Source of the DNA: Dehalococcoidia bacterium
GTDB taxonomy: Bacteria > Chloroflexota > Dehalococcoidia > SZUA-161
Length of the DNA stretch: 35,678 nt
Reading direction: 5' to 3'
Assembly: GCA_011174795.1 (NCBI GenBank)
Contig: DUEY01000044.1
Location: forward strand, 1-35,678
Below are positions 3,344-22,455 of the stretch, piece by piece. A program made the translations under genes and the position numbers. Numbering within the stretch: the stretch's first letter is position 1; each line of letters begins with the position of its first letter. The notes under the pieces were generated by a model, which made no database searches, was not told where the DNA came from, and saw only the letters and a program-made list of their open reading frames with translations.

Positions 3344-3433
<90 letters not shown>

Positions 3434-3434
3434 G

Positions 3435-3522
3435 CGGAGAGGGTGGGATTCGAACCCACGCTCCGATACAATCGGAGACCGCTTTTCGAGAGCGGCACCA
3501 TAAACCACTCGGACACCTCTCC
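3435..3522 (-). tRNA. tRNA-Ser(CGA)
   Basis: This is a class II tRNA on the minus strand. The acceptor stem GGAGAGG (3516-3522) pairs with CCTCTCC (3436-3442). The anticodon stem CCGCT/AGCGG encloses loop CTCGAAA with anticodon CGA. The long variable arm contains the TCCGAT/ATCGGA stem, and the T-arm has GTTCGAATC. Discriminator G is at 3435. No CCA follows: only base 3434 separates it from the next tRNA, so CCA must be added after processing, unlike its neighbour. Confidence 0.97.
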
Positions 3523-3725: not shown

Positions 3726-5129
3726 CTACCGCCCTCTGCGGGGGTGGCGGGAGCGCCCGGAATCCTCCGGCGGCTTCGCCTGGCTGCGGTAGTCGGGGGC
3801 GTGGATGAAGATGAGGTTGCTCAGCTTGGGATCCTGAAGGCGTGAGCTCAATCGGCCTTCGAGTTCCTCCAGGAAGCCGGCAACGGTGATAACCGTGGGC
3901 AGCCGCGAGTTGTAGCGGTAGTTCAGTATCTGGTAGAGCTTCTCCTGGGCCCACGGCGTGCTGCTCTCGGTGCCCAGGTCGTCCAGGATGAGCAGCGGGC
4001 TTGACTTCACCCCTTCGAAGACACGGTCGTAGGTTATTTTGCTCTCGGGGCTGAAGGTGGAGCGGAGGTGGTCGAGGAGGTCGGGCACGACGGCGAAGAA
4101 GACGGGTCGCCCCGCTCTCAACTGGTGGTTGGCTATGGCTGCCGCAAGGTGGGTCTTGCCGCAGCCGTGCACACCGAGGAAGACGAGCCAGTTCTCGGGC
4201 GCCTCGGCAAACTGGCGTGCGGCTTCCCAGGCGGTCTGGAGGCTCTCCCGCCCCCTCTCGTCGGCGTTTATTCCCCGTGTATCGAACGTCTCGAAGGTCT
4301 TGTCGCCGAGGAACTGGAGGCTCAGGCCGCCTATTTCCTGAAAGAGGGGTTTCAGAGGCTTCTCCAGTTCGCACTGATAGGCTATAGTAGGGTCTTGCAG
4401 CCGTGCCACGAGCCGCTCGTCCAGCCCCCCCAGGTTGTTGACTGTTACCACCGTCGGCAGCTCGGTGTTGAACCGGTGGTTTAATATCTGGAACAGCTTC
4501 TCCTCGGCCCAGGGAGTGCTGCTCTGGCTGCCCAGGTCGTCGAGCACCAGGAGAGGGGCGTTGCGCACCCGCTCGAAAAGTTCATCGTAGGCAACGTCGC
4601 TCGTGGGGCTGAACGTGGTGCGAAGGTGGTCGAGGAGGTCGGGGACGATGATGAAAAATGCCCGGTGCCCTTCGTGAATCCGCTGGTTGGCTATAGCCGC
4701 TGCCATATGAGTCTTGCCGCAGCCGCTGGGGCCGCTGAGGACGAGCCACCCTTTGGGCTCCCGGGAGAACTCTTTCGCCGCTTCAAGACAGCGGGCGAAC
4801 CTCTCCTGGTTTTGAGGGTCGCTGCTGCGTCCCCGGGGCAGCAGCTTATCGAAGGTGAGGCGTGTCAGTGGTCCCAGGTTGCTGTATCGCTCCAGCCGTG
4901 ACACACGGCCCTGCTCTATTTCCTTTTTGGTACATTCACAGGGTACCAGCCTGCCGAAGTCGGGGTGATCCAGGGGGACGTCGAAGCGCAGCCAGCCCCT
5001 TCCCTTGCAGATAGGGCACTCGCCCTCCGCGCCATCATCCGGCAGGCTACTTCTTGAGGAGGTGTCCGTATCTCCTGTAGTATTCTTCTGGGTCAGACTC
5101 CGCTTCAGTATGTCGCCCAGGCTTTCCAT
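3726..5129 (-). CDS. Tandem-domain DnaC/DnaI-like AAA+ ATPase (putative helicase loader)
   Basis: This 467-residue protein is about twice the size of a normal DnaC/DnaI loader. After a short N-terminal stretch comes a likely zinc-binding module CPICKGRG ... CEC (about residues 38-65). Then follow two complete AAA+ domains. The first has Walker A GPSGCGKTH (about 134-142) and Walker B LLVLDDLG; the second has Walker A GVHGCGKTH and Walker B LLILDDLG. The copies are strikingly alike: VPDLLDHLR-T-TFSP and VPDLLDHLR-S-TFSP, then SSTPWA-EEKL-QILN in both. The offset is 186 residues (558 bases), visible also in the DNA. The second copy lacks the zinc module and the sensor-1-like Asn (TVNN becomes TVAG). 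By family role it should load DnaB at origins or restart forks. It lies downstream of dnaB and dnaD-like genes and overlaps the latter by 83 bases. Start ATG 5129 has GGAGGG upstream. Confidence 0.85.
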   Translation of the reverse strand: MESLGDILKRSLTQKNTTGDTDTSSRSSLPDDGAEGECPICKGRGWLRFDVPLDHPDFGRLVPCECTKKEIEQGRVSRLERYSNLGPLTRLTFDKLLPRGRSSDPQNQERFARCLEAAKEFSREPKGWLVLSGPSGCGKTHMAAAIANQRIHEGHRAFFIIVPDLLDHLRTTFSPTSDVAYDELFERVRNAPLLVLDDLGSQSSTPWAEEKLFQILNHRFNTELPTVVTVNNLGGLDERLVARLQDPTIAYQCELEKPLKPLFQEIGGLSLQFLGDKTFETFDTRGINADERGRESLQTAWEAARQFAEAPENWLVFLGVHGCGKTHLAAAIANHQLRAGRPVFFAVVPDLLDHLRSTFSPESKITYDRVFEGVKSSPLLILDDLGTESSTPWAQEKLYQILNYRYNSRLPTVITVAGFLEELEGRLSSRLQDPKLSNLIFIHAPDYRSQAKPPEDSGRSRHPRRGR

Positions 5130-7168: not shown

Positions 7169-7870
7169 CTATTCCTTCTCTTCCTCTTCCTCCGATACTG
7201 GTTCAGGCTCCTGCTCCTGCATTTCTGTTTGCGTTTCCGGCTCAGGCTCAGGCTCAAGCTCAAGCTCTGGCTTAAGTTCAGGCTCCTGCTCCTGTAATTC
7301 CGTTTCCGGCTCCGGTTCAGGCTCTTGCTCTTGCTCTTTCTCCTCTACCGCCTTTTCCTCCTTCTTTTTCTTGGGCTCCTTCGCTTTCTCTTTTTCCTTC
7401 TTCTCCTTGCCCTCTTCCTCCTCCTCTTTCTGCTCGACGAGGACGTTTACTGTGGCGGTTACATTCCTGGTTAATCTAATCGATACCTCGTGGCTGCCCA
7501 GCTCGCGGATGGGCTCTTCAAGCTCTATGTTGTGCTTGTCGATATCGTGTCCGGTGAGCCGCTTTATCTCTTTGGCGATGGCTGCATTTGTGACCGAGCC
7601 GTAGATGCGGTCTTTAGCCCCGGCACGAGCCTTCAGGGCTACGGTAACCCCTCTCAGTTCTTGAGCCAGGACTTCGGCTTCCTGCTCCAGAACAGCCTGA
7701 CGGCGTTCTTCGGACTGGCGCCACAACTCCAGTTTTCGCAGTTCGCCGGGGGTGGCGAGTACGGCGAGCTTCTTGGGGAAAAGAAAATTTCTGGCATAGC
7801 CATCGGCTACATCTTTAAGGTCACCCGCTCGGGCAACGTTGGTGACATCCTGGAGAAAAATTACCTTCAT
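7169..7870 (-). CDS. rplI: Ribosomal protein L9 with a long low-complexity acidic tail
   Basis: Residues 1-147 are a normal bL9: an N-terminal 23S rRNA-binding domain ([15 protein letters not shown], then [16 protein letters not shown]), a connecting helix rich in E/R, and a C-terminal domain ending at [10 protein letters not shown]. The remaining ~86 residues are low complexity. First comes an EK-rich part, then repeated E-P, E-Q-E-P and E-L-E-P units, ending in EEEEEKE. Typical bL9 is about 150 residues, so the tail is an extension with no recognised domain, probably disordered and highly acidic. AGAGG lies five bases before ATG 7870. A TTGACC box (7906-7911) and TAGAAT (7881-7886) face the gene, but their 19-base spacing makes that promoter uncertain. 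Confidence 0.97.
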
Positions 7871-11934: not shown

Positions 11935-14406
11935 CTATGGTTGCGCAGTCTCGGCAGCTGTTTCCTCTGCAGGCTCGTCCGGCTCCTTTGCACTTTTTTT
12001 CGACATCCTGTACCGTGCGAGCGCCTTCTTGGTGTGCTCTATCTCCTCGGGCGTGACCTTCTGGCGCATTTCCTCCAGATTGCGCATAATCCGGGCAAAC
12101 CTGGCGCCCTCCGCGGAGCTGATCCATTCCAGTTGCAGGCGTTCTGGCCTGATCCCCAGCTTCTCCATGCGAGACCAGAGCTTTTCAGCACGGCGCTTGG
12201 TCCATTGATTAGCGTCTATGTAGTGGCAATCGCCTATGTGGCAGCCTGAGAGCAGGACAATGGGAGCACCCTTCTCGAAGGCGTGCAGGATGAATTTTTC
12301 GTCCACTCTACCGCTGCACATGGTGCGGATGAAGCGGTTATTGGCGGGGTATTGAAGCCTGGAAACTCCCGCTAGGTCACCGCCGGCATAGCTGCACCAG
12401 TTACACAGGAAGCTTATAATCTTCTTCTCCGGCTCTTCCTCTAATGCGGCGTCTATCTGGGCCATTATCTGCTCGTCGCTGAAGTGCTGCATTGTTATGG
12501 CGTCGAAGCGGCACTCCGCGGCGCAGGTTCCGCAACCGGCACATGCCGCAGCCACAACACGTGCCTCTGTCTTGCCTTTGACGTCCACTGTTATTGCACC
12601 ATAGGGGCAGACCTTGGCGCAAACGCCGCAGTATGTGCATTTGTCTAAGTCTATTACTGCCTTGAGGGCCTCGCCGGTGATGGTGCCTGCATTGAGTATG
12701 ATTGAGCTCCTGGAGGCGGCTGCTCCCGCCTGCGTGACGCTGTCCTTGATGTCCTTAGGCGCTTCCACACAGCCGGCGAAGAAGATGCCGGGCGTAGGCG
12801 CGTCCACTGGCCTCAGCTTGGGATGAGCCTCCATAACGAAGCCGTCACTGGTATGGGAGAGGTTAAGAAGGCTGGATAGGTGCCTCAGGTCTTGCTTGGG
12901 CTCGAGACCCAGCGCCAGCACTACCATGTCGAGTTCGTATTCCTCCACCCGTCCCGCGGTTGTATTCTCAACCTTGAGGCGAAGATTTTTAGTGGTGGGG
13001 TCCTCGGTTATTTCGCCGGGCATACCCCGGATGTAGTGAACGCCCTCTTCCTTAGAGCGCCGGAACAGGTCCTCGAAGCCCTTGCCGAAGGCGCGGATGT
13101 CCATGTAGAAGACGTAGACCTCAGCGTCTGGATGATGCTCCTTGATGAGCAGGCTGTCTTTCACCGTGGCCATGCAGCAGACGTTGGAACAGTAGGGATT
13201 GCCGCGGTTATCCGTTCGTGAGCCAACGCACTGGATGAAGCCGATGCGCTTCGGTGTCTGATGGTCGGAGGGACGCACGAGGTTTCCATCGGTCGGCCCG
13301 CTGCCGCAGATCAGCCTCTCGAACTCTATATTAGTGACTACATTTTCGAATCGTGTATATCCGTATTCGTCCAGCGGGGTCGGGTCGTATATCTCCATGC
13401 CTGTAGCTACAATTATGGTGCCCACTTCCAGTTCGACTATCTCATCCTCCATGTTGAGGTCGATGCACTGCTTGTCACACGCGTCGAGGCACTTGGAGCA
13501 CGCTATGGGATTGTTGCCCAAACAGTGCTCCATGTCGATGAGGTATGCGGCAGGCACTGCTTGGGGAAAGGGGATATATGCTGCTTTGCGCGAGGAAAAA
13601 CCTTGCTGGAACTCGTCTGGTAATACGACCGGGCACACTTCGGCACACTTATCGCAGGCAGTACACTCTTTGGCATTGACATAACGTGCCTTCTTCCGCA
13701 CCTTGACCTTGAAATTGCCGATGTATCCCGAGACCTCCTCGACTTCGCTCAGGGTCATCAGTTCGATTCTGGGATGTCGACCGACATCCGTCATTTTAGG
13801 ACCGAGTATTCATATCGAGCAGTCCATAGTGGGGAAAGTCTTGTCGAGCTGTGCCATTATGCCGCCGATGCTGGGCTGCTTCTCGACCAAATAAACCTGA
13901 TGGCCTGCATCGGCGAGGTCGAGGGCTGCCTGGATACCGGCGATACCTCCGCCGATGACCATGGCTTTGTCCGTCACCGGTATCTTGATTTCCTCCTCGG
14001 GCGACATGTAGCGAGCCCTGGCAATCGCCATTTTAACGGCGTCCTTGGCCTTTTGCGTTGCCGCCTCCCGGTCGTGGAGATGTACCCAGCTGCATTGCTC
14101 GCGTATATTAGCCATCTCCAGCAAATAGGGATTGAGTCCCGCTTCGGAAATGCAGTCGCGGAAAGTCTTTTCATGAAGGAGAGGCGTGCATGAGGCGACC
14201 ACAACACGGTTCAGCTTGTATTCTTCTATATTCTTCTTTATCTCCTCCTGCCCGGGGTCGGCGCAGGTGTACCTGTTTCTTACCGCGACAACAACGTCGG
14301 GGAGCCCCTCGGCGAAGCGTCGCACCTCCTCGGTGTCAACCGACCCTGCTATATTGAGTCCGCAGTCACAAACAAAGACGCCTATTCTCAGTTCCTCATC
14401 AACCAA
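11935..14406 (-). CDS. hdrA: HdrA-MvhD fusion with in-frame TGA read as selenocysteine
   Basis: Two adjacent same-frame pieces (to 13810, and from 13794) form one 823-residue HdrA. The TGA at 13812-13810 (codon 199) falls in DCSI-x-ILGPKM, where HdrA proteins have a conserved Cys, and a SECIS-like hairpin follows. Order: an N-terminal HdrA domain starting [13 protein letters not shown]-binding Rossmann motif [10 protein letters not shown] (about 153-162); a cysteine-rich insert [15 protein letters not shown]-fold segments; two ferredoxin clusters, [12 protein letters not shown] and [11 protein letters not shown] (about 590-635); and a fused MvhD domain from [15 protein letters not shown] (about 667). 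HdrA is the FAD subunit that bifurcates electrons in heterodisulfide reductase complexes; MvhD is the [2Fe-2S] link to an electron donor. The start is probably TTG 14406, eight bases after AGGAGG, because GTG 14415 abuts that site. It is the last gene of the kor-hdr unit, following the hdrD-like gene by 12 bases. Confidence 0.9.
13772..13789 (-). promoter_or_regulatory. SECIS-like hairpin downstream of the hdrA TGA codon
   Basis: On the minus strand GGATGTC (13789-13783) pairs perfectly with GACATCC (13778-13772) around the loop GGTC (13782-13779). The loop starts 27 bases after the TGA, within the usual range for bacterial SECIS elements. The GGUC loop matches the SelB-contacting sequence of E. 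coli fdhF. The hairpin sits inside coding sequence (MTDVGRHPR), as bacterial SECIS elements do. Confidence 0.7.
13810..13812 (-). other. Recoded TGA (selenocysteine) codon in hdrA
   Basis: The minus strand reads ATA TGA ATA CTC GGT CCT AAA ATG in one uninterrupted frame. Protein similarity to HdrA continues across it on both sides (DCSI before, ILGPKM after). The position corresponds to the second Cys of the C-S-x-C motif in cysteine-containing HdrA. Selenocysteine-containing HdrA is known in methanococci and some other anaerobes. Confidence 0.8.
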
Positions 14407-14418
14407 ATTACTCACCTC

Positions 14419-15555
14419 CTAGTCTAAAGCCCGGGCTGCCAGTTCTGCCAGGTCTTGAATCTCGATTTGGGGAGCTTTGCCATCGCTCCTTTTCTGGGCA
14501 CACTTCAGGTGTATCTGGCATTTGGGACATGTGGTTACCAGTATCTCGGCTCCGGTTGCCTCTGCCTGGGCGAGACGCTGTTTCTGTATCTCCCTGTTGA
14601 CAGCGCCGCAGTTCACCCAGGGGCTTGCCCCACAACATAGTGATTTCTCCCGGCTCTCCTCCATCTCCACGAACTCCAGCCCCGTCAATCCCCCCAGAAT
14701 TTGTCTGGGCTGGTCGAAAATTCGCGAGCATCTTCCCAGTGTACAGGGGTCATGATAGGTAGCTGTTTTTTCTATCCTGCCCAAACTCATTTCGCCGCTT
14801 TGCAGCAGCGGGGCTATGACCTCTGTGAGATGCATTACCTCGATACCCGCGTTTCCCAGTATGGCGGGATACTCGACCTTTAGCGTATAGTGACCTTCGG
14901 GGCAGTTGGTGATTATCTTCTTGATACCGTGGCGGGCGAACTCCTCCATGTTGGCCCTTGCCAGCGCCAAGAAGCCCTCCCGGTCTCCCTGAAGGAGCAG
15001 GTCTCTCCCGCAACAGCGTTCATTATCGAGAACAGTGAAAGGTATCTGAGCTCGGTTCAGCAGCCTGAGCGCCCCTTTTATTCCTGCCAGTGTGTTCACA
15101 CCTAAATCGCCGAATATAATATCGAAATAGGGAGCGCACCCGATAAAGAATATGGTATCACACGGCTCCGATAGCTCAATGTCCTGCGGTAGCCAGCCCA
15201 TACGGTCCTGCTTCAGCTCTTCGAGTGACATAAGGTGCATCAGCGACTGGAGAGCTCCCCCGTGACTGCACTGCGGTTGCACCCCTTCCGAGAAGGCTTC
15301 CGCTCTCAGGATTTGGATGAACTCAGGGAACTTCACGTGGTAGTTGCAGCGCTCCACGCACATGTAACAGTTGAGACAGGACCATATTGTATCATCATGC
15401 GGCCTGCTGCTGTCCCGCCTCAGCCTTCGCTGAGCAATAAGACGGGGAGTGAACTCCGGCTCATACTGGGCGACAGGACATACCACGGTGCACTTGCCGC
15501 AGTCGAGGCAGAGGTGTATCTTGGTATCCTTTATCTCCCGTTCTGTATCGAACAC
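14419..15555 (-). CDS. HdrD-like iron-sulfur protein (HdrC-HdrB fusion, two CCG domains)
   Basis: This 378-residue protein has an N-terminal pair of [4Fe-4S] motifs (CLDCGKCTVVCP, residues 16-27, and CLNCYMCVERC, about 60-70), as in HdrC. They are followed by two cysteine-rich CCG domains, as in HdrB. Domain one has FIGCAPYFD, NERCCGRD and NCPEG; domain two has HDPCTLGRC, LCCGAS and TTCPKC. In HdrB these domains hold the noncubane clusters that cleave heterodisulfide. The first copy has CPEG where CPxC is usual, so only the second looks fully ligand-competent. The substrate is unknown: coenzyme M/B are not expected in a bacterium. No membrane segment is seen. The start is GTG 15555 with AAAGGA upstream. 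It lies between a small MvhD-like gene and the selenocysteine hdrA, and should receive electrons from HdrA. Confidence 0.9.
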   Translation of the reverse strand: MFDTEREIKDTKIHLCLDCGKCTVVCPVAQYEPEFTPRLIAQRRLRRDSSRPHDDTIWSCLNCYMCVERCNYHVKFPEFIQILRAEAFSEGVQPQCSHGGALQSLMHLMSLEELKQDRMGWLPQDIELSEPCDTIFFIGCAPYFDIIFGDLGVNTLAGIKGALRLLNRAQIPFTVLDNERCCGRDLLLQGDREGFLALARANMEEFARHGIKKIITNCPEGHYTLKVEYPAILGNAGIEVMHLTEVIAPLLQSGEMSLGRIEKTATYHDPCTLGRCSRIFDQPRQILGGLTGLEFVEMEESREKSLCCGASPWVNCGAVNREIQKQRLAQAEATGAEILVTTCPKCQIHLKCAQKRSDGKAPQIEIQDLAELAARALD

Positions 15556-15630: not shown

Positions 15631-16044
15631 CTATGCCTTAACGGGGATAGCAGGCTGCATCTGTTCGACCTCCGTGATGAAGCCCGTCACCTGCTTCATA
15701 AAGCCATAGCCATCGCCGTGGGCCAAGTGGGCAATGACCAGTCGCTCTTCCCCTAGACCGAGAAGGTTCAAGATACTGCGTGTATTCTCATACTCATGCG
15801 TTACGAGCCCAGCGTCGATATCGAAATGGCAGTTGCCCGGTTCGCATCCCAGGAGTATAACTCCGTCGGCACCCAGTTCAAACGCCTTGAGTATCAGCCC
15901 CTGGTGTATTCTGGAGAGACAGCTTACTCTGACTACCTTGACTGATGCCGGGTAGCAGTATCCAGCCTGTGACGCAGCCTCTACACAACTGAGGCCGTCC
16001 CAGTTACAGGCAAATATGACGATATTCGGTGCTTGCTTGCTCAT
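15631..16044 (-). CDS. MvhD-like hydrogenase/Hdr iron-sulfur subunit, stand-alone
   Basis: This 137-residue protein is the whole MvhD domain. It begins IVIFACNWDGLSCVEAA (about residues 8-24) and includes VRVSCLSRIHQGLILKAFELGADGVILLGC and GNCHF, which together supply the cysteines for a [2Fe-2S] cluster. Its cysteine spacing in the first motif (C-N-W-D-G-L-S-C) differs from the MvhD domain fused to HdrA in this same cluster (C-N-W-C). The two are therefore not duplicates and may dock to different partners. In methanogens MvhD passes electrons from hydrogenase or formate dehydrogenase to HdrA. No hydrogenase is encoded here. Its ATG overlaps the stop of the 1179-residue upstream gene by four bases. 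Confidence 0.88.
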   Translation of the reverse strand: MSKQAPNIVIFACNWDGLSCVEAASQAGYCYPASVKVVRVSCLSRIHQGLILKAFELGADGVILLGCEPGNCHFDIDAGLVTHEYENTRSILNLLGLGEERLVIAHLAHGDGYGFMKQVTGFITEVEQMQPAIPVKA

Positions 16045-19000
16045 CTCACTCCAGCTGCGCAGGTGATTTTTCCCAGCAGGGCTTCAAGTGTGGAGGTTAT
16101 TTGTTCGTCACTCTGGATAAACTGTGCTATGGCGCCTGTAGGGCAGCGGGCAACGCATGCTCCGCAGCCGAGACATAGTGCCGGGTCAATAAAGGCGCAT
16201 GCTATCCCGCTATCGCGCTCTTTCATCTCTATATAAGGGCATATTGCAGCGCAATCACCACAGCCGCGACATAGTTTGCTGTCGATGGTAACCGCAATGG
16301 CCCGGGGGCTCACGCTGCCCTGGCATAGATAAGCCGAGGCTCTGGCTGCCACCGCTGCTCCTTTGAATATCTGCTCCTCTGGTGGCTCCTCTCCATCCCG
16401 CGATGTGATGAATATGCCTCCAGTCTCTTTAAGTGTGTACTTTCTCAGCTTGGCGGTATCTGTATCTCCCGTCGTTCTCCTGTAGCTTTCAGGTGCGAGC
16501 AGACGACCAAGGAGGTTATCCTTGGCGGTGGCAGTTGAGTCGGGAGGAAACTCGCCTTCTCGCTCTCCGACATCGATTATCACTGTACCGGCCTTGATCC
16601 GGCTGGTCCGTGAGCCGTATTTCAGTTCGGCATTATAGATACCGGGCGGGCCATCCAGCTTCAGGGCGTGAGGCCAGGGCCTGATTTTTATACCCTGCTC
16701 CTCAAGCTGTTTCAGGAGGGAATCCTTTGTATCCCGATACGCTGATTTTTTCTGCTCTCGACCACCACTTTTTTCAGGGCCCGAGACAATATCTACCGAA
16801 TAGCCCTGTATTGCCAGGCTCCTTGCTGCTGAGAGGCCACGAAGCCCTGCACCCAGTATCAGCGCACCTCCCTCTACGGGATGCTCTTCGTGTATTGACG
16901 GCAATACCTTCCTGACACGGGCGACTCCTGCCAGGATTATATCTACCGCTTTACGCGTAGCATCTTCAGGGTGGTCCCGGTGCACCTTGGCGCATTGTTC
17001 GCCGATGTTGACAAACTCCACAGTTATGTTATTAAGCGGGGTCAGGCTATAGCTGAGATTCTCTTGACAGATTACCCGTCTTTCCGTGCAGCTGAAGCAT
17101 ATCTGGTCCAACCCGCAGCACCGACAGGCAGCAAGCACTATCTTGTCCATCTTCCATTCAGCAGCCTGCGAAGCAATCCAGTTTGCTCCCTCTTCGCTAC
17201 ATGCCTGCGATATCTCCTGGACATTGCATATACCAGGAACCTGTAGTACTTCGTTTATCACCTGATTGAAATCTATGACAGAACTGGTGCTGCCGCCGCA
17301 GCGGCACAGGAAGACGCCGATACGTTCTCCACCGACAACGCTCAACTCCTTTTCTTCGCTTGTGCGGGCTAAATCGGCGCCGGGAGTATGTGCGATATAC
17401 GGGGTTTCCTGTGGCTCCTCCTTGCGCTCGAACTTCGTGGCTGCTTCCAATGCGATGGCCGAAGCCCGGGCCAGTTCCCTTTCAAGATCATGGTTCTCCC
17501 CGGTCTGCACTATATAGATGCCCGGTTTTGTGAGATGTAGCTGGGTGTCTCGTGCAAGGTAGCCCGGCTTGCTTTCGCTGACCCCGCCGTTGGACTCGAA
17601 ATCAATTATGGCTTCGGCTCCTATCTCTATCTGCTCGGCATTATCCTTATGAAATACTGCGCCTAACTCGCAGACACGTTCGCATTCCAGGCACTCGCTG
17701 CAGAGGGCGCAGTTGAGGCAGCGCCCGGTCTCGCGGTCCGCCGCATCCGCGGGCAGCCCAAGGGTAACTTCCTCGAAGCTGCCCAATCTTCGCTTGTAGG
17801 GAGGTAGGGCGGGCATGCGGGCTCGTTTGTGATGGGAAATGTCCTTCTCGCCTACTTCGAAATCGACGGGCTTCGGCTTTTCCAGGCTGCGGCCCTTCCT
17901 CAGGTCGCGCCTTCTTATGTATCGGTCGATAGACTCCGCGGCGCGGAGACCGGCTGCCATAGCTTCTACGACGTTGTTCGGTCCGGTGACGCAATCACCG
18001 CCGGAGAAGACTCCGGGTACGTTCGTCTCGAGCGTAAGGGGGTCAGCCCTGATATTGCCTGTAGCATCGTCTATATCGAGCCACTTCGCATTGAGGGTAG
18101 ACACGTTTGGTCGCTGCCCTATGGCTATAACCACGTGGTCGGCTTCGATTGTAAATTCCGAGCCGGGTATTGGCTCCGGCCTGCGGCGACCATCGGCTTC
18201 AATCTCACCCAGTTCCATCCTCTGACAGCGTATTCCGGTTACCTTTCTGCCATCGCCGAGTATCTCCACGGGAGACGTCAGGTATTCTATTGAGACACCT
18301 TCGTTGATAGTCTCCTCAACCTCCTCCTTTACAGCGGTCATCTCGTCGGCGGTACGGCGATAGAGTATCTTCACTTCTCCCTTGCTCCGTCTCTTCGCCG
18401 TCCTGGCCGAGTCTATGGCGCTGTTGCCGCCGCCGATGACAACTACATTTAATCCCACAGCGGCACCGACGTGTATATTCAGTGCGAAGAGCAGCGAGAC
18501 GGCGTCAACCACGCCCTCGAGGTCTTCGCCGGGTATGTTCAGCTTATTGTTCTGATGTGCGCCTATAGCCAGGAAGAAGGCGCGGTAGCCCCGCTCCATA
18601 AGGTCGTAAAACGATACGTCACGTCCTACCGTTACGCCTGTCATTATGTCAACACCCAAAGCCTTAATAGCCTCAACTTCCCGATAGCGCACTTCCCAGG
18701 GGAGACGGAATCTGGGAATACCTGTAGCCAGCATGCCACCCACCTGGGCGTGGGATTCGAATATAGTGGGACGATAGCCACGGCGAGCTAGCTCCCAGGC
18801 GGCGGCAAGTCCGGCAGGACCGCTGCCGACGATGGCTATCCTCTCTCTTCTCGAGCCGGCGGGGGCCTTGAGCCTGTAGTCTATGCCACCGGTGGCGTGG
18901 TCTGCCACATAGCGATGCAGTGCCCGGATAAAAACGGGACTGTCAACTTCACCCCGCTTGCAATTATCCTCACAGGGATGAGTACACACGCGGCCGAGAA

Positions 19001-19580
19001 CACCGGCCAGTGGCGCTGCCTCATTTATCAGGCCGAGGGCCTCATCAACCTTGCCCTTGGAAAGCAGGCAGACGAACCCCTGAACATTGATGCCGAGAGG
19101 ACATGCTGCCCGGCAGGGAGCAATGGCGCCCTTCTCGATGTAATATGCCGATGGTGCTGTCCTCGAACTTGGTATTGGGGCGTGGATGGCGCTGTGGGCT
19201 TTTTTTTGTCCATCCAGCAGCGACGTCACCTTCACTGAGCAAGCTTCCTCACAGCGACCACAACTGGTGCAAAGGTCAGTGTGCACATAGCGTGGGTTCC
19301 TGTTTGCTCTTATGGTAAACTTACCCTGCTTACCCGTTATTGTCCTGACCTCGGTATTGGTGTGGACAGTCACGAGTGGGTGGCTGGCAGTTCGCAGCAG
19401 CAGAGGCCAGATACGTGACAGGTCTTCGGAGGAAGTGTCTGTGGTTCTGGAAATAGGATTCTCTAGACCCAGTGCCGTTGAAGGGGTTAGTAATTTGACC
19501 TCTATCCCCAACTCGGCCAGGGTAAGGGCAGCCTGCGCTGCTTCAACACTGCTGCCGATTACGGCCATACCTCTAGCCAT
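16041..19580 (-). CDS. Giant HdrA / GltD-type NAD(P)H oxidoreductase / ferredoxin fusion flavoprotein
   Basis: The 1179 residues fall into clear modules. Residues 1-90: degraded HdrA-like FAD fold (GSSVEAAQAA). 104-114: half ferredoxin motif CTSCGRCEEAC. 155-210: GltD/DPYD-type Fe-S domain (CRAACPLGINVQG, CTHPCEDNCKRG). 247-560: FAD site VGSGPAGLAAA, NAD(P)H site VIGGGNSAIDSA and the SGGDCVTGPNNVVEAMAAG end motif. 621-637: CLNCALCSECLECERVC. 750-1080: second HdrA-like domain (RIGVFLCRCGG, ACRCCG, LGAGLRGLSAA). 1104-1146: two [4Fe-4S] motifs (CRGCGDCAAIC, CLGCGACVARC). The GltD module is the relative of NfnB and glutamate synthase small subunit and should exchange electrons with NAD(P)H. ATG 19580 overlaps korC by eight bases; ATG 19568 is an alternative. 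Its position between kor and hdr genes suggests a hub joining ferredoxin, NAD(P)H and Hdr electrons. Confidence 0.88.
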   Translation of the reverse strand: MARGMAVIGSSVEAAQAALTLAELGIEVKLLTPSTALGLENPISRTTDTSSEDLSRIWPLLLRTASHPLVTVHTNTEVRTITGKQGKFTIRANRNPRYVHTDLCTSCGRCEEACSVKVTSLLDGQKKAHSAIHAPIPSSRTAPSAYYIEKGAIAPCRAACPLGINVQGFVCLLSKGKVDEALGLINEAAPLAGVLGRVCTHPCEDNCKRGEVDSPVFIRALHRYVADHATGGIDYRLKAPAGSRRERIAIVGSGPAGLAAAWELARRGYRPTIFESHAQVGGMLATGIPRFRLPWEVRYREVEAIKALGVDIMTGVTVGRDVSFYDLMERGYRAFFLAIGAHQNNKLNIPGEDLEGVVDAVSLLFALNIHVGAAVGLNVVVIGGGNSAIDSARTAKRRSKGEVKILYRRTADEMTAVKEEVEETINEGVSIEYLTSPVEILGDGRKVTGIRCQRMELGEIEADGRRRPEPIPGSEFTIEADHVVIAIGQRPNVSTLNAKWLDIDDATGNIRADPLTLETNVPGVFSGGDCVTGPNNVVEAMAAGLRAAESIDRYIRRRDLRKGRSLEKPKPVDFEVGEKDISHHKRARMPALPPYKRRLGSFEEVTLGLPADAADRETGRCLNCALCSECLECERVCELGAVFHKDNAEQIEIGAEAIIDFESNGGVSESKPGYLARDTQLHLTKPGIYIVQTGENHDLERELARASAIALEAATKFERKEEPQETPYIAHTPGADLARTSEEKELSVVGGERIGVFLCRCGGSTSSVIDFNQVINEVLQVPGICNVQEISQACSEEGANWIASQAAEWKMDKIVLAACRCCGLDQICFSCTERRVICQENLSYSLTPLNNITVEFVNIGEQCAKVHRDHPEDATRKAVDIILAGVARVRKVLPSIHEEHPVEGGALILGAGLRGLSAARSLAIQGYSVDIVSGPEKSGGREQKKSAYRDTKDSLLKQLEEQGIKIRPWPHALKLDGPPGIYNAELKYGSRTSRIKAGTVIIDVGEREGEFPPDSTATAKDNLLGRLLAPESYRRTTGDTDTAKLRKYTLKETGGIFITSRDGEEPPEEQIFKGAAVAARASAYLCQGSVSPRAIAVTIDSKLCRGCGDCAAICPYIEMKERDSGIACAFIDPALCLGCGACVARCPTGAIAQFIQSDEQITSTLEALLGKITCAAGVR

Positions 19581-20139
19581 CTGCTTTACTCTTGCTCTTC
19601 TTTCCGTGTTCTAAACCATAGTTATATCCCAACTCGAATGCCTTGGCATTGAATTCCTCTGTTCCCTTGGGCACGGAAGTAAGGACAGACTTCTTGAGTG
19701 CCTTGGGTGATAATATGTCGCTTACAGCTGCCAGATAACCCAGCATTATGATATTCGCCACCACCACTCGCCCCAACTCACGTGCCATGTGGGTTGCCGG
19801 GATGGCTAGAGGCGCCGGATTCTGGGATGGGTCTGGTTTTACCAGATTCGGGTCTATAATAACGAGGGTGTCTGAAGGGAGATCATTCACGTACTTTGTG
19901 TAAGCCTCTTGCGATAGGATGATGAGCACATTCGGGTTCTGAACATAGGGATAGCCTATCGGCTCATCTGATATAACTACTTCGGAGGTGCAGGAGCCGC
20001 CACGGGCTTCTGGCCCATAGCTCTGGGTAAGGGTGGCGAAACCCTTATCGTGTATGGAGGCGGCTTGGCCGACTATCTGACCTGATAGTACGACTCCCTG
20101 ACCGCCGAACCCCGCTATTCTTATCTCTCTAATACCCAA
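19573..20139 (-). CDS. korC: 2-oxoglutarate:ferredoxin oxidoreductase, gamma subunit
   Basis: The protein has 188 residues. IRIAGFGGQGVVLSGQIVG (residues 6-24) is the signature of the gamma subunit, along with YGPEARGGSCTSEVVIS. This subunit completes the tetrameric KorABCD enzyme, which oxidatively decarboxylates 2-oxoglutarate to succinyl-CoA or runs in reverse to fix CO2. The start must be TTG 20139: an in-frame TGA lies two codons upstream and no ATG precedes the conserved region. GAGGA is just before it. It follows korB by 16 bases and overlaps the next gene by eight, supporting one mRNA. Confidence 0.93.
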   Translation of the reverse strand: MGIREIRIAGFGGQGVVLSGQIVGQAASIHDKGFATLTQSYGPEARGGSCTSEVVISDEPIGYPYVQNPNVLIILSQEAYTKYVNDLPSDTLVIIDPNLVKPDPSQNPAPLAIPATHMARELGRVVVANIIMLGYLAAVSDILSPKALKKSVLTSVPKGTEEFNAKAFELGYNYGLEHGKKSKSKADG

Positions 20140-20155: not shown

Positions 20156-21013
20156 CTATTTGCTTTTTTTCTCCTTGACCCGGTCAAATACCTGCTTGCA
20201 GCAGTCCCAGAGAGTGGGACGCTCAATATCGACGTACTTGCCGACTAATATGGGGCCATTCAGACCTATCTCTGCATCTTTTGGGTCTGCTCCATTCCGG
20301 ATGACGCTTCTTTTCAGGTACGTATGCATTGTATCCAGCCCCTTCGACTCTTTGTTCAAACGCCCGTAGAGCGCCGGGCAGGGACTGAGCACCTCTACGA
20401 AGCTGAACCCTGGTTTGACCAGCGCCTCTGCTATAGACCGCTCCAATTCACGCGGGTGCATAACCGTCCAGCGGGAAACATAGGTAGCGCCGCTGGCAGC
20501 CAGGAGGTAAGGCGCATTAAAGGGATATTCAACATTGCCGTAAGGTGTGGTGGTGGTACGGGCATCGATTGGGGTAGTAGGACCCATCTGACCACCGGTC
20601 ATACCATAGTTGAAGTTGTTGATACAGATGACGGTTAAATCTATATTACGGCGGGCAGAGTGTATGAGATGGTTGCCTCCTATAGCGAGAAGGTCGCCGT
20701 CTCCTGAGAAGACCACCACGTTTAACTCTGGATTACCCAGCTTAAGGCCGGTGGCGAAGGGCAAGGCCCGGCCGTGAGTAGTATGAAACGAATCAAGCTT
20801 GACATAACCTGCAGCCCTGCCGGCACAGCCTATCCCCGAGATAAGAGATACCTTGTCCGGGTCAAGACCAGCACGTTCCACTGCCCGAGCGAAGCATCCT
20901 ACGGCGGTGCCTATGCCGCAACCGGCACACCAGATATGCGGCATACGGTCCATTCTGAGGAATGATTCTATATTGCTTTCCTCTAATGTTACCGGTGTTT
21001 TTGTACTTGTCAT
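20156..21013 (-). CDS. korB: 2-oxoglutarate:ferredoxin oxidoreductase, beta (thiamine diphosphate) subunit
   Basis: The 285-residue subunit carries the cofactor-binding GDGDLLAIGG ... INNFNYGMTGGQ motif (about residues 96-135), the thiamine-diphosphate/Mg signature of 2-oxoacid:ferredoxin oxidoreductase beta subunits. WCAGCGIG near residue 27 supplies cluster-ligand cysteines. The open frame extends 67 codons further upstream inside korA, but that part is arginine-rich shadow sequence. ATG 21013 has AAAGGAA 11 bases upstream and overlaps the korA stop by four bases (ATGA), so I start there. Confidence 0.96.
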   Translation of the reverse strand: MTSTKTPVTLEESNIESFLRMDRMPHIWCAGCGIGTAVGCFARAVERAGLDPDKVSLISGIGCAGRAAGYVKLDSFHTTHGRALPFATGLKLGNPELNVVVFSGDGDLLAIGGNHLIHSARRNIDLTVICINNFNYGMTGGQMGPTTPIDARTTTTPYGNVEYPFNAPYLLAASGATYVSRWTVMHPRELERSIAEALVKPGFSFVEVLSPCPALYGRLNKESKGLDTMHTYLKRSVIRNGADPKDAEIGLNGPILVGKYVDIERPTLWDCCKQVFDRVKEKKSK

Positions 21014-22161
21014 TGCAACGATTCCTTTATGGCGTTCAGAATGGTGTGGGGAGTGTGCACGCTGCCGCCCATGTGTGGCACGAGCACTGTACTGGCTTTG
21101 CCCGCTGCGCACCTCTCCACCTCCAGCACAATCTGGCCGTAATTTATCTCGGGCACGATGAAGGCCTTGACCTGCTTCGCCAGCTCTTTGACACGCTCTT
21201 CGGCAAATGGCCATACTGTTATAAGCCGCAGCAGCCCCGCTCGAATCCCCTCGTTACGTGCCTGCTGTACCGCGAGGCGGGCGATACGGGAGGTGATTCC
21301 ATAGGCGCAGACTATAATCTCTGCATCCTCGACATCGCTTTCTTCACATTTAATAATGTCGTTCCTGTTGAGCTTTATCTTGTCTACCAGCCGGCGCACC
21401 AGCTTGTCCTGTGCCTCAGCCGTCATTACCGGGTATCCTTTCTCGTCGTGGGTGAGTCCGGTAACATGGAAGCGATAGCCCTCGCCGGCGATAGCCATCG
21501 GTGGTACGAGGTCACCATCGGCTTTATAGGGCAGATATTCCTCGGGCGGCACATCCGGCCGTCGGCGGCTCATCAGATTCTCAGGTGATATCTCAGGTAT
21601 CACTACTTTCTCGCTCATATGCCCCACAGCTTCGTCTGACATCACCAGTACGGGAACACGGTATCTTTCCGACAGGTTGAATGCCTCAATAATAAGGTCG
21701 AATATCTCCTGTGGGGAACTCGGGACAAGCGCGATTATCTCGTAGCTGCCATGGGAGCCCCATCGCGCCTGCATCATGTCCCCCTGTGCCGGCAGGGTAG
21801 GCAATCCGGTAGATGGGCCGGCGCGTTGTATGTTGACCAGGACGCATGGCGTCTCGAGTATCACTCCCAGACCCAAGTTCTCCATCATCAGACTGAATCC
21901 GGGGCCTGAGGTTGCCGTCATCGCCTTTACTCCCGCCCAGGATGCTCCGAGTACGGCATTCATAGATGCGATCTCGTCCTCCATCTGGATATATACGCCT
22001 CCCACGTGCGGTAGACGCTCGCTCATCCTCTCCGCTACCTCGGTGGCTGGCGTTATGGGATAGCCGGCGAAGAAACGACAGCCCGCACTGATCGCCCCCT
22101 CGGCACAGGCGACATCACCGTTCATGAAAAACGTTCCGTGAAGAATACCATCTTCAGACAT
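21010..22161 (-). CDS. korA: 2-oxoglutarate:ferredoxin oxidoreductase, alpha subunit
   Basis: This 383-residue protein is the pyrimidine-binding alpha subunit. FMNGDVACAEGAISAGCRFF and GYPITPATEVAE (about residues 12-46), MEDEIASMNAVLGASWAG and TATSGPGFSLM are characteristic of KorA rather than pyruvate enzymes. GAGAGGA lies just upstream of ATG 22161. Order D-A-B-C matches OorDABC/KorDABC operons of other anaerobes. The reaction couples 2-oxoglutarate and CoA to succinyl-CoA, CO2 and reduced ferredoxin. In an organism with an incomplete TCA cycle it usually works in the reductive direction for glutamate synthesis. Confidence 0.96.
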   Translation of the reverse strand: MSEDGILHGTFFMNGDVACAEGAISAGCRFFAGYPITPATEVAERMSERLPHVGGVYIQMEDEIASMNAVLGASWAGVKAMTATSGPGFSLMMENLGLGVILETPCVLVNIQRAGPSTGLPTLPAQGDMMQARWGSHGSYEIIALVPSSPQEIFDLIIEAFNLSERYRVPVLVMSDEAVGHMSEKVVIPEISPENLMSRRRPDVPPEEYLPYKADGDLVPPMAIAGEGYRFHVTGLTHDEKGYPVMTAEAQDKLVRRLVDKIKLNRNDIIKCEESDVEDAEIIVCAYGITSRIARLAVQQARNEGIRAGLLRLITVWPFAEERVKELAKQVKAFIVPEINYGQIVLEVERCAAGKASTVLVPHMGGSVHTPHTILNAIKESLQ

Positions 22162-22174
22162 ATAAACAGTCCTC

Positions 22175-22441
22175 TCAGCTCTCGTTACCGGCTATTTCCA
22201 GATGTATAGCGAATTCCGGGCAGAGAACCTCACACAGGCCGCAGCCCAGGCACTTGCTCTCGTCTGCCACCTCGACAAGCGTATAGCCCTTGGGACTCAA
22301 CTCCTCGCTCGTCCTGAGTGCTTCTTTGGGGCAGAATTCGACGCAGTAGCCGCATCCCTTGCATCGCTCCTTGTCGATTACCACCTTCGGAGGCTTTATC
22401 GCCTTCTCCGCCAGGTCGAAAGGCGTTCTCCACATTTTCAT
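22175..22441 (-). CDS. korD: 2-oxoglutarate:ferredoxin oxidoreductase, delta (ferredoxin) subunit
   Basis: This is a small protein of 88 residues from ATG 22441. It has two [4Fe-4S] motifs, CKGCGYCVEFCP and CLGCGLCEVLCP, the second followed by EFAIHLE. It relays electrons between the Kor active site and soluble ferredoxin, or here perhaps directly to the Hdr-like partners. An in-frame GTG at 22453 would give 92 residues. However, it would lie upstream of the transcription start predicted from the TATAAT at 22456-22461, so ATG 22441 (or ATG 22435) is preferred. korA follows after 13 bases. This is the first gene of the long minus-strand unit. Confidence 0.92.
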   Translation of the reverse strand: MKMWRTPFDLAEKAIKPPKVVIDKERCKGCGYCVEFCPKEALRTSEELSPKGYTLVEVADESKCLGCGLCEVLCPEFAIHLEIAGNES

Positions 22442-22455
22442 AATATCATCCACTA

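Follow-up and report, generated by a model that had tools for sequence, protein, structure and literature searches.

The 35,678-nucleotide contig of a Dehalococcoidia bacterium (DUEY01000044.1 of assembly GCA_011174795.1), referred to here as the window, contains an hdrA gene interrupted by an in-frame TGA. This raised the question of whether the codon terminates translation or encodes selenocysteine (Sec), and of which complex the resulting protein would serve. Selenoprotein forms of HdrA are documented: one tabulation has sixteen of them, arising with two changes from Cys to Sec and four losses, and the bacterial genera it lists include Syntrophobacter, Syntrophus, Moorella, and Carboxydothermus (PMC1794560). 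A 2026 review gave the HDR alpha subunit as NF040770, with a CxxU motif and one Sec (PMC13188914). The family model, the CxxU motif, and the in-frame TGA are common to this family and the HdrA of the window. In Chloroflexi and Dehalococcoidia, Sec-containing formate dehydrogenases have been described (PMC5736913, PMC4959059), while no report of Sec-HdrA from these groups was found in the literature searched, including the portions available of those two papers. Sec-HdrA is, going by these sources, an already known bacterial selenoprotein family, to which the gene of the window adds a member. It differs from the members of the listed genera in its Dehalococcoidia-type Chloroflexota host, and in that genes of a 2-oxoacid:ferredoxin oxidoreductase, not frhA/frhD, adjoin it. 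On the evidence below, we put the probability at about 95% that this gene encodes a bacterial selenoprotein HdrA, its UGA being decoded as Sec to give one 826-residue protein. With it, the energy metabolism of uncultured Dehalococcoidia-type bacteria would gain a well-supported predicted selenoprotein.

The hdrA reading frame and its in-frame TGA

The hdrA gene occupied positions 11935–14415 of the minus strand and, when read through the TGA at 13810–13812 (TCA on the forward strand), gave a frame of 826 residues with that one TGA within it. Two open reading frames, 13810–14415 and 11935–13794, shared the frame, and five sense codons (ILGPK) separated the TGA from the next ATG, exactly as in a preliminary description of this DNA. 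That description had also placed Sec at residue 199. The number is right if translation begins at the TTG at 14406, three codons on and with AGGAGG ahead of it (read by eye), and wrong if it begins at the GTG at 14415, from which the putative Sec is residue 202. The codon lay in the sequence DCSI-U-ILGPKM, within a CxxU motif and presumably in the flavin-binding domain.

Homology was unbroken across the TGA, which bore out the earlier claim of a selenoprotein with TGA at a conserved cysteine. Residues 7–657 matched the HdrA of PDB code 5odc, which we take to be the HdrABC–MvhAGD complex of Methanothermococcus thermolithotrophicus, in a single phmmer alignment spanning the TGA (811 bits). Residues 661–784, the MvhD-like C-terminal domain, matched the MvhD of the same entry, which is a separate chain in 5odc whereas it is fused to HdrA in the window. 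Cysteine stood opposite the TGA in the HdrA chains of 5odc, 8rvu, and 8rvv (three printed alignments). The NCBIfam HdrA2 model NF040770 gave 1206.8 bits, above its cut-off of 1100. Against four relatives, dN/dS was 0.05–0.13 on either side of the TGA, these ratios being rough at a dS above 1.

The gene had been expected to be split by automated annotation. The open reading frame list of the window does split it, but the outcome is not certain in general, since a model dedicated to HdrA2, of the kind 'exception', exists at NCBI. A partial hdrA in Methanocaldococcus appears to have arisen through such splitting (PMC12054007), and hdrA of Dehalococcoidia-type bacteria may be affected in the same way.

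Selenocysteine machinery, relatives, and the SECIS-like hairpin

The genome of the window (1.81 Mb, 76 contigs, 89.6% complete) contained all four sel genes for which the preliminary description had proposed a search. The selA gene (535 bits), selB (372 bits), and the gene for tRNA-Sec (selC, anticodon tca) followed one another on a single contig; selD (387.5 bits), itself with an in-frame TGA at GAG-U-ACK, was also present. An FdhA-like gene (G000:C30:35287-38187, L169) carried an in-frame TGA at ARI-U-HSATV; its first piece gave 190 bits, below the family cut-off. It shared a contig with selA–selB and tRNA-Sec, about 5 kb ahead of them, which places a putative selenoprotein gene close to the Sec machinery. 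A genome-wide reassignment of TGA (as in code tables 4 and 25, for example) is scarcely conceivable, since TGA is the ordinary stop of eight of the 29 gene-like open reading frames listed in the window, the Sec machinery is present, the residue aligned to the TGA is Cys and not Trp or Gly, and no point was found in its favour.

The site was compared with the best 80 loci of at least 568 confirmed relatives, obtained by a scan of genome contigs and aligned to the window protein. The codon was TGA in 60 and TGC or TGT in 20 of these 80, a ratio that describes the nearest relatives and not HdrA as a whole. The TGA rows came from Chloroflexota, Acidobacteriota, Zixiibacteriota, Thermodesulfobacteriota, and other phyla, and the tree of 81 rows required four changes of state. 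With TGA or Cys at the codon in 80/80, none of these relatives had the ordinary stop, frameshift, or degraded sequence that the preliminary description had set against its own reading, and the alignment with Cys- and Sec-HdrA homologues favours a selenoprotein. Further in-frame stops within the aligned part occurred in 12 of the 80, all at least 598 codons downstream of the site, and are taken to be the gene ends of those relatives.

The TGA might also be a pseudogene mutation or a sequencing error, a TGC or TGT having mutated or been misread. The relative nearest by identity among the best 80 (L034, 85%) indeed has TGT at the site. However, the TGA and the hairpin described below were shared by independent assemblies (L035, 84%, and L036, 81%), and TGA was present in 58 more relatives of several phyla. 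The same codon in 60 of the best 80 relatives, together with low dN/dS on both sides, argues against chance or decay and makes this explanation exceedingly improbable.

Eleven Chloroflexota Cys rows (L034, L037–L042, L045, L048, L066, and L090) had Val at position +1 and Met at +7, and codon +1 began with AT (Ile) in all 60 TGA rows and the remaining nine Cys rows. The TGAAT of every TGA row may reflect a nucleotide constraint. A second HdrA of the window's genome (G000:C26:2041-4408; L015, L016) was 46% identical, had Cys (TGC) at the site, and was followed by an MvhD-like stretch. Methanococcus maripaludis likewise has a Sec version, HdrAU, beside a Cys version, HdrA (PMC11097638). The second HdrA of the present genome differs in being a Cys paralogue of only 46% identity and not a close twin isoform. 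At seven loci (L047 349, L059 1447, L060 1423, L065 1629, L079 1176, L086 1416, L096 1441), a second HdrA-like stretch upstream had a TGA and a like hairpin, so that these operons seem to encode two Sec HdrA proteins.

A SECIS-like hairpin with a 7-bp stem and a GGUC loop was located at 13772–13789 of the minus strand, behind a 20-nt spacer, the first base of its loop lying 28 nt beyond the TGA. Archaeal SECIS elements lie outside the coding sequence. Bacterial ones lie within it, with the apical loop 16–37 nt after the TGA and a G at the loop start, and the window hairpin agreed with this bacterial rule in its GGTC loop, its distance of 28 nt, and its place inside the coding sequence. Of the 60 TGA relatives, 52 formed all seven stem pairs and eight formed six, as against three to six pairs, and in no case the complete stem, among the 20 Cys relatives. 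The GGTC loop was present in 59/60 TGA relatives vs 0/20 Cys relatives. The sixth pair covaried among the 60 TGA relatives (T-A in 30, C-G in 27, T-G in 2, unpaired in 1).

When the region was recoded synonymously at the gene's own codon usage, seven pairs arose in 0.6% of 2000 recodings for the window and in 2.5% over the 60 relatives. The folding energy was not unusual for the composition, with z values of −0.65 (51 nt) and 0.04 (101 nt) and a range of 0.04 to −1.06 over four lengths. Conservation and synonymous recoding, and not thermodynamic stability alone, single out the hairpin. An Rfam search of the window at gathering thresholds returned two tRNA-Ser genes only, so the SECIS assignment is independent of Rfam. 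When the whole window was scanned mechanically for read-through TGAs, 16 were listed besides that of hdrA; four of the 16 had a SECIS-like stem, and all four were outside the frames of the 29 gene-like open reading frames.

If the TGA were a true stop, HdrA would be made as two shorter proteins, translation of the second beginning anew at the ATG that lies five codons further on, and both open reading frames are indeed long. However, Cys occupied the exact codon in 20 of the best 80 relatives and in the solved HdrA. The sequence before that ATG, ATACTCGGTCCTAAA, contained no obvious ribosome site as judged by eye, and a complete hairpin was confined to TGA carriers in a setting where the genome has Sec machinery. 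A split HdrA is thus very improbable. In the selenoprotein reading, SelB carrying Sec-tRNA-Sec would bind the hairpin behind the UGA during translation of hdrA and deliver Sec at the UGA, an insertion that we infer, to give the single 826-residue chain. Sec would then stand in a CxxU motif at the place of the CxxC found in other HdrA proteins. As a default guess, the selenium atom may serve faster thiol/selenol chemistry or act as a cluster ligand, and the residue may be redox-active, as the preliminary description had it.

Operon neighbours and the probable electron-splitting complex

The genes upstream of hdrA were all on the minus strand. The nearest (14419–15555) encoded an HdrC/HdrB-like (TfrB/GlpC-like) iron-sulphur protein, the probable HdrA partner, with 153 bits to PRK06259 (cut-off 385) and further matches below cut-off to HdrC (59 bits, cut-off 270) and HdrB (21 bits, cut-off 345). 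It was followed by a separate MvhD-like subunit without an in-frame TGA (15631–16044; NF045873, 65.1 bits, below the cut-off of 215). A link to MvhD was present both in the C-terminal domain of HdrA and in this gene. The next product (16041–19580) was an HdrL-like fusion, named after PMC2702500, of a GltD-like NAD(P)/FAD module (PRK12771, 459.4 bits, cut-off 516) with HdrA-like segments matching NF040770 in three stretches. No in-frame TGA was present in its gene.

The subunits of a 2-oxoacid:ferredoxin oxidoreductase completed the series. The gamma subunit (19573–20139) gave 209.7 bits to PRK08537 and the beta subunit (20156–21214) gave 252 bits to PRK09628 over residues 81–304, neither reaching its cut-off (235 and 364, respectively). 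The homology of the beta subunit starts near residue 81, so its true start is probably internal to the open reading frame. The alpha subunit, a 2-oxoacid:acceptor oxidoreductase chain (21010–22161), gave 589.3 bits to PRK08659, exceeding the cut-off of 411, and the ferredoxin-like delta subunit (22175–22453) gave 61.3 bits to NF042987, below the cut-off of 125. Among the operon partners, the alpha subunit alone exceeded the cut-off of the model quoted; because most partners stayed below curated cut-offs, the complex is one that we infer. No MvhA or MvhG was recognised by eye among the translated open reading frames of the window.

The loci of Desulfobacterium autotrophicum offer a likeness, as they hold Sec-HdrA and HdrL fusion proteins with MvhD (PMC2702500). 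The HdrL-like protein of the window differs in its gene lacking an in-frame TGA and in sitting with korABCD. Judged from protein families and gene order, HdrA of the window is probably a flavin-based electron-splitting hub with the HdrC/B-like, MvhD-like, and HdrL-like subunits. Such a soluble Hdr complex would split or merge electrons among three parties: ferredoxin, the module linked to NAD(P), and a further acceptor. At one end of the electron transfer would stand the 2-oxoacid:ferredoxin oxidoreductase, reached through ferredoxin, and at the other an acceptor that is NAD(P)H-linked, a disulphide, or both.

Alternatively, Sec may be inserted while HdrA serves another complex, for example with a formate dehydrogenase or a hydrogenase, the 2-oxoacid oxidoreductase genes being mere neighbours. 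The genome does have the FdhA-like selenoprotein gene, and Hdr–Fdh and Hdr–MetVF clusters occur in other Chloroflexi (PMC5736913). Furthermore, the HdrC/B-like gene was the only neighbour matched beside hdrA in L035, so the full operon is not obligatory. Against this, KorC, the HdrL-like protein, MvhD, and the HdrC/B-like protein were all encoded upstream of hdrA in 37 of the best 80 of at least 568 relatives (30 TGA, 7 Cys), a count to be read in the light of the many remaining loci that were cut by contig or locus ends. Over the same 80, the HdrC/B-like gene was upstream of hdrA in 66 and MvhD in 58. Service in another complex is thus possible but rather unlikely, and the 2-oxoacid-linked hub is the reading preferred here.

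Sec and Cys states within the family, and other features of the window

The presence of selA was surveyed in 48 genomes drawn from 50 of the 80 loci. It was found in 29/29 genomes with TGA-HdrA vs 9/19 with Cys-HdrA (Fisher p 1.4e-5, with kinship ignored); one positive in each class was a partial match under the cut-off, and matches of 42.6, 19.2, and 18.6 bits were scored as absent. The taxonomic family of the window was represented by nine genomes. The hdrA site was TGA in three of them, the window's genome and two from a different genus, and Cys in the other six. All nine had selA, and the six Cys genomes that keep it indicate that the capacity for Sec does not fix the state of the site.

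The gene trees of this family disagreed. The rpoB tree joined the Cys genome G050 to the Sec pair of the other genus (SH-aLRT 96) and set the window's genome apart. The selA tree mixed Sec and Cys genomes in groupings unlike those of rpoB, with the window beside G050 (91). The operon without HdrA gave a clade of G050, G054, and the Sec genome G055 (100/100) and rejected the window and G055 together (p-AU 2.7e-5). By comparison, when the site was masked, HdrA united the Cys rows in a single clade (94/99; recovered in 91% of 200 bootstrap trees) and rejected G050, G055, and G056 as a group (p-AU 0.0013). The operon tree was built without G056, for which too few residues were available, and the comparison of operon and masked HdrA was made without the Cys rows L039–L042, L066, and L090.

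The conflict was also present within hdrA. The operon's groupings were rejected by the 214 codons near the site (p-AU 0.0014 and 0.0085) but not by the 534 codons of the C-terminal part (0.10 and 0.16), which instead rejected the single Cys clade (p-AU 0.017). The whole gene rejected the operon's groupings and not the single Cys clade (p-AU 0.22), which would also be compatible with a transfer of the entire gene. By per-codon likelihood, the Cys clade was favoured most at codons −121 to +60 or +65. The support in a fixed stretch from −160 to +90 was matched by 0/5000 random codon draws and by 12 or 20 of 789 circular shifts; the segment used here, in the split along the gene, and in the comparison of third positions had been suggested by earlier sliding trees, and the p-values are thus partly post hoc. 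Third positions changed sign in the same way, with +24.6 and +19.5 inside the block and −12.4 and −11.1 outside, which argues against mere convergence of the protein.

Other results, among them those from wider samples, were less clear. With 11 Cys rows, the single Cys clade was not rejected on protein (p-AU 0.10) and was weakly rejected on nucleotides (0.037), and a free segment scan was not significant, 254 of 3000 permutations being as high. In the 14-row set, the free scan was equalled by 317 of 3000 permutations under one of the two rival groupings and by 67 under the other. The single Cys clade was favoured in that set by a second stretch too (approximately codons +486 to +535) and, for the three Sec genomes, by the last sliding trees.

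On these trees, the Sec/Cys state goes with a part of hdrA that differs in its history from the remainder of the gene, from the operon, and from rpoB, which suggests an allele exchange, in either direction. At about even odds, homologous recombination made the switch in this Dehalococcoidia family, exchanging a short block of hdrA (roughly codons −121 to +65) that carries codon and SECIS together, within an operon of different history and in genomes that all keep selA. A narrow literature search gave no further report of recombination in Sec/Cys switching. If such recombination did occur, a selenoprotein could be lost or regained by one step of allele exchange, and the hairpin would not have to be rebuilt by point mutation. 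It would provide a concrete route between Sec and Cys, including the return to Sec, for which point mutation alone needs both a TGA and a working SECIS within constrained coding sequence.

Three further features, all on the minus strand, were observed elsewhere in the window. The two tRNA-Ser genes (gga, 3345–3433, and cga, 3434–3522; ARAGORN) abutted without a base between them. The open reading frame at 3726–5129, presumably DnaC/IstB-like, apparently contained the same ATPase module twice, as judged from the near-repeats GCGKTHMAAAIAN and GCGKTHLAAAIAN, an internal duplication. The product of 7169–7870, which we take to be ribosomal protein L9-like, had a long low-complexity tail rich in Glu, Lys, and Pro.
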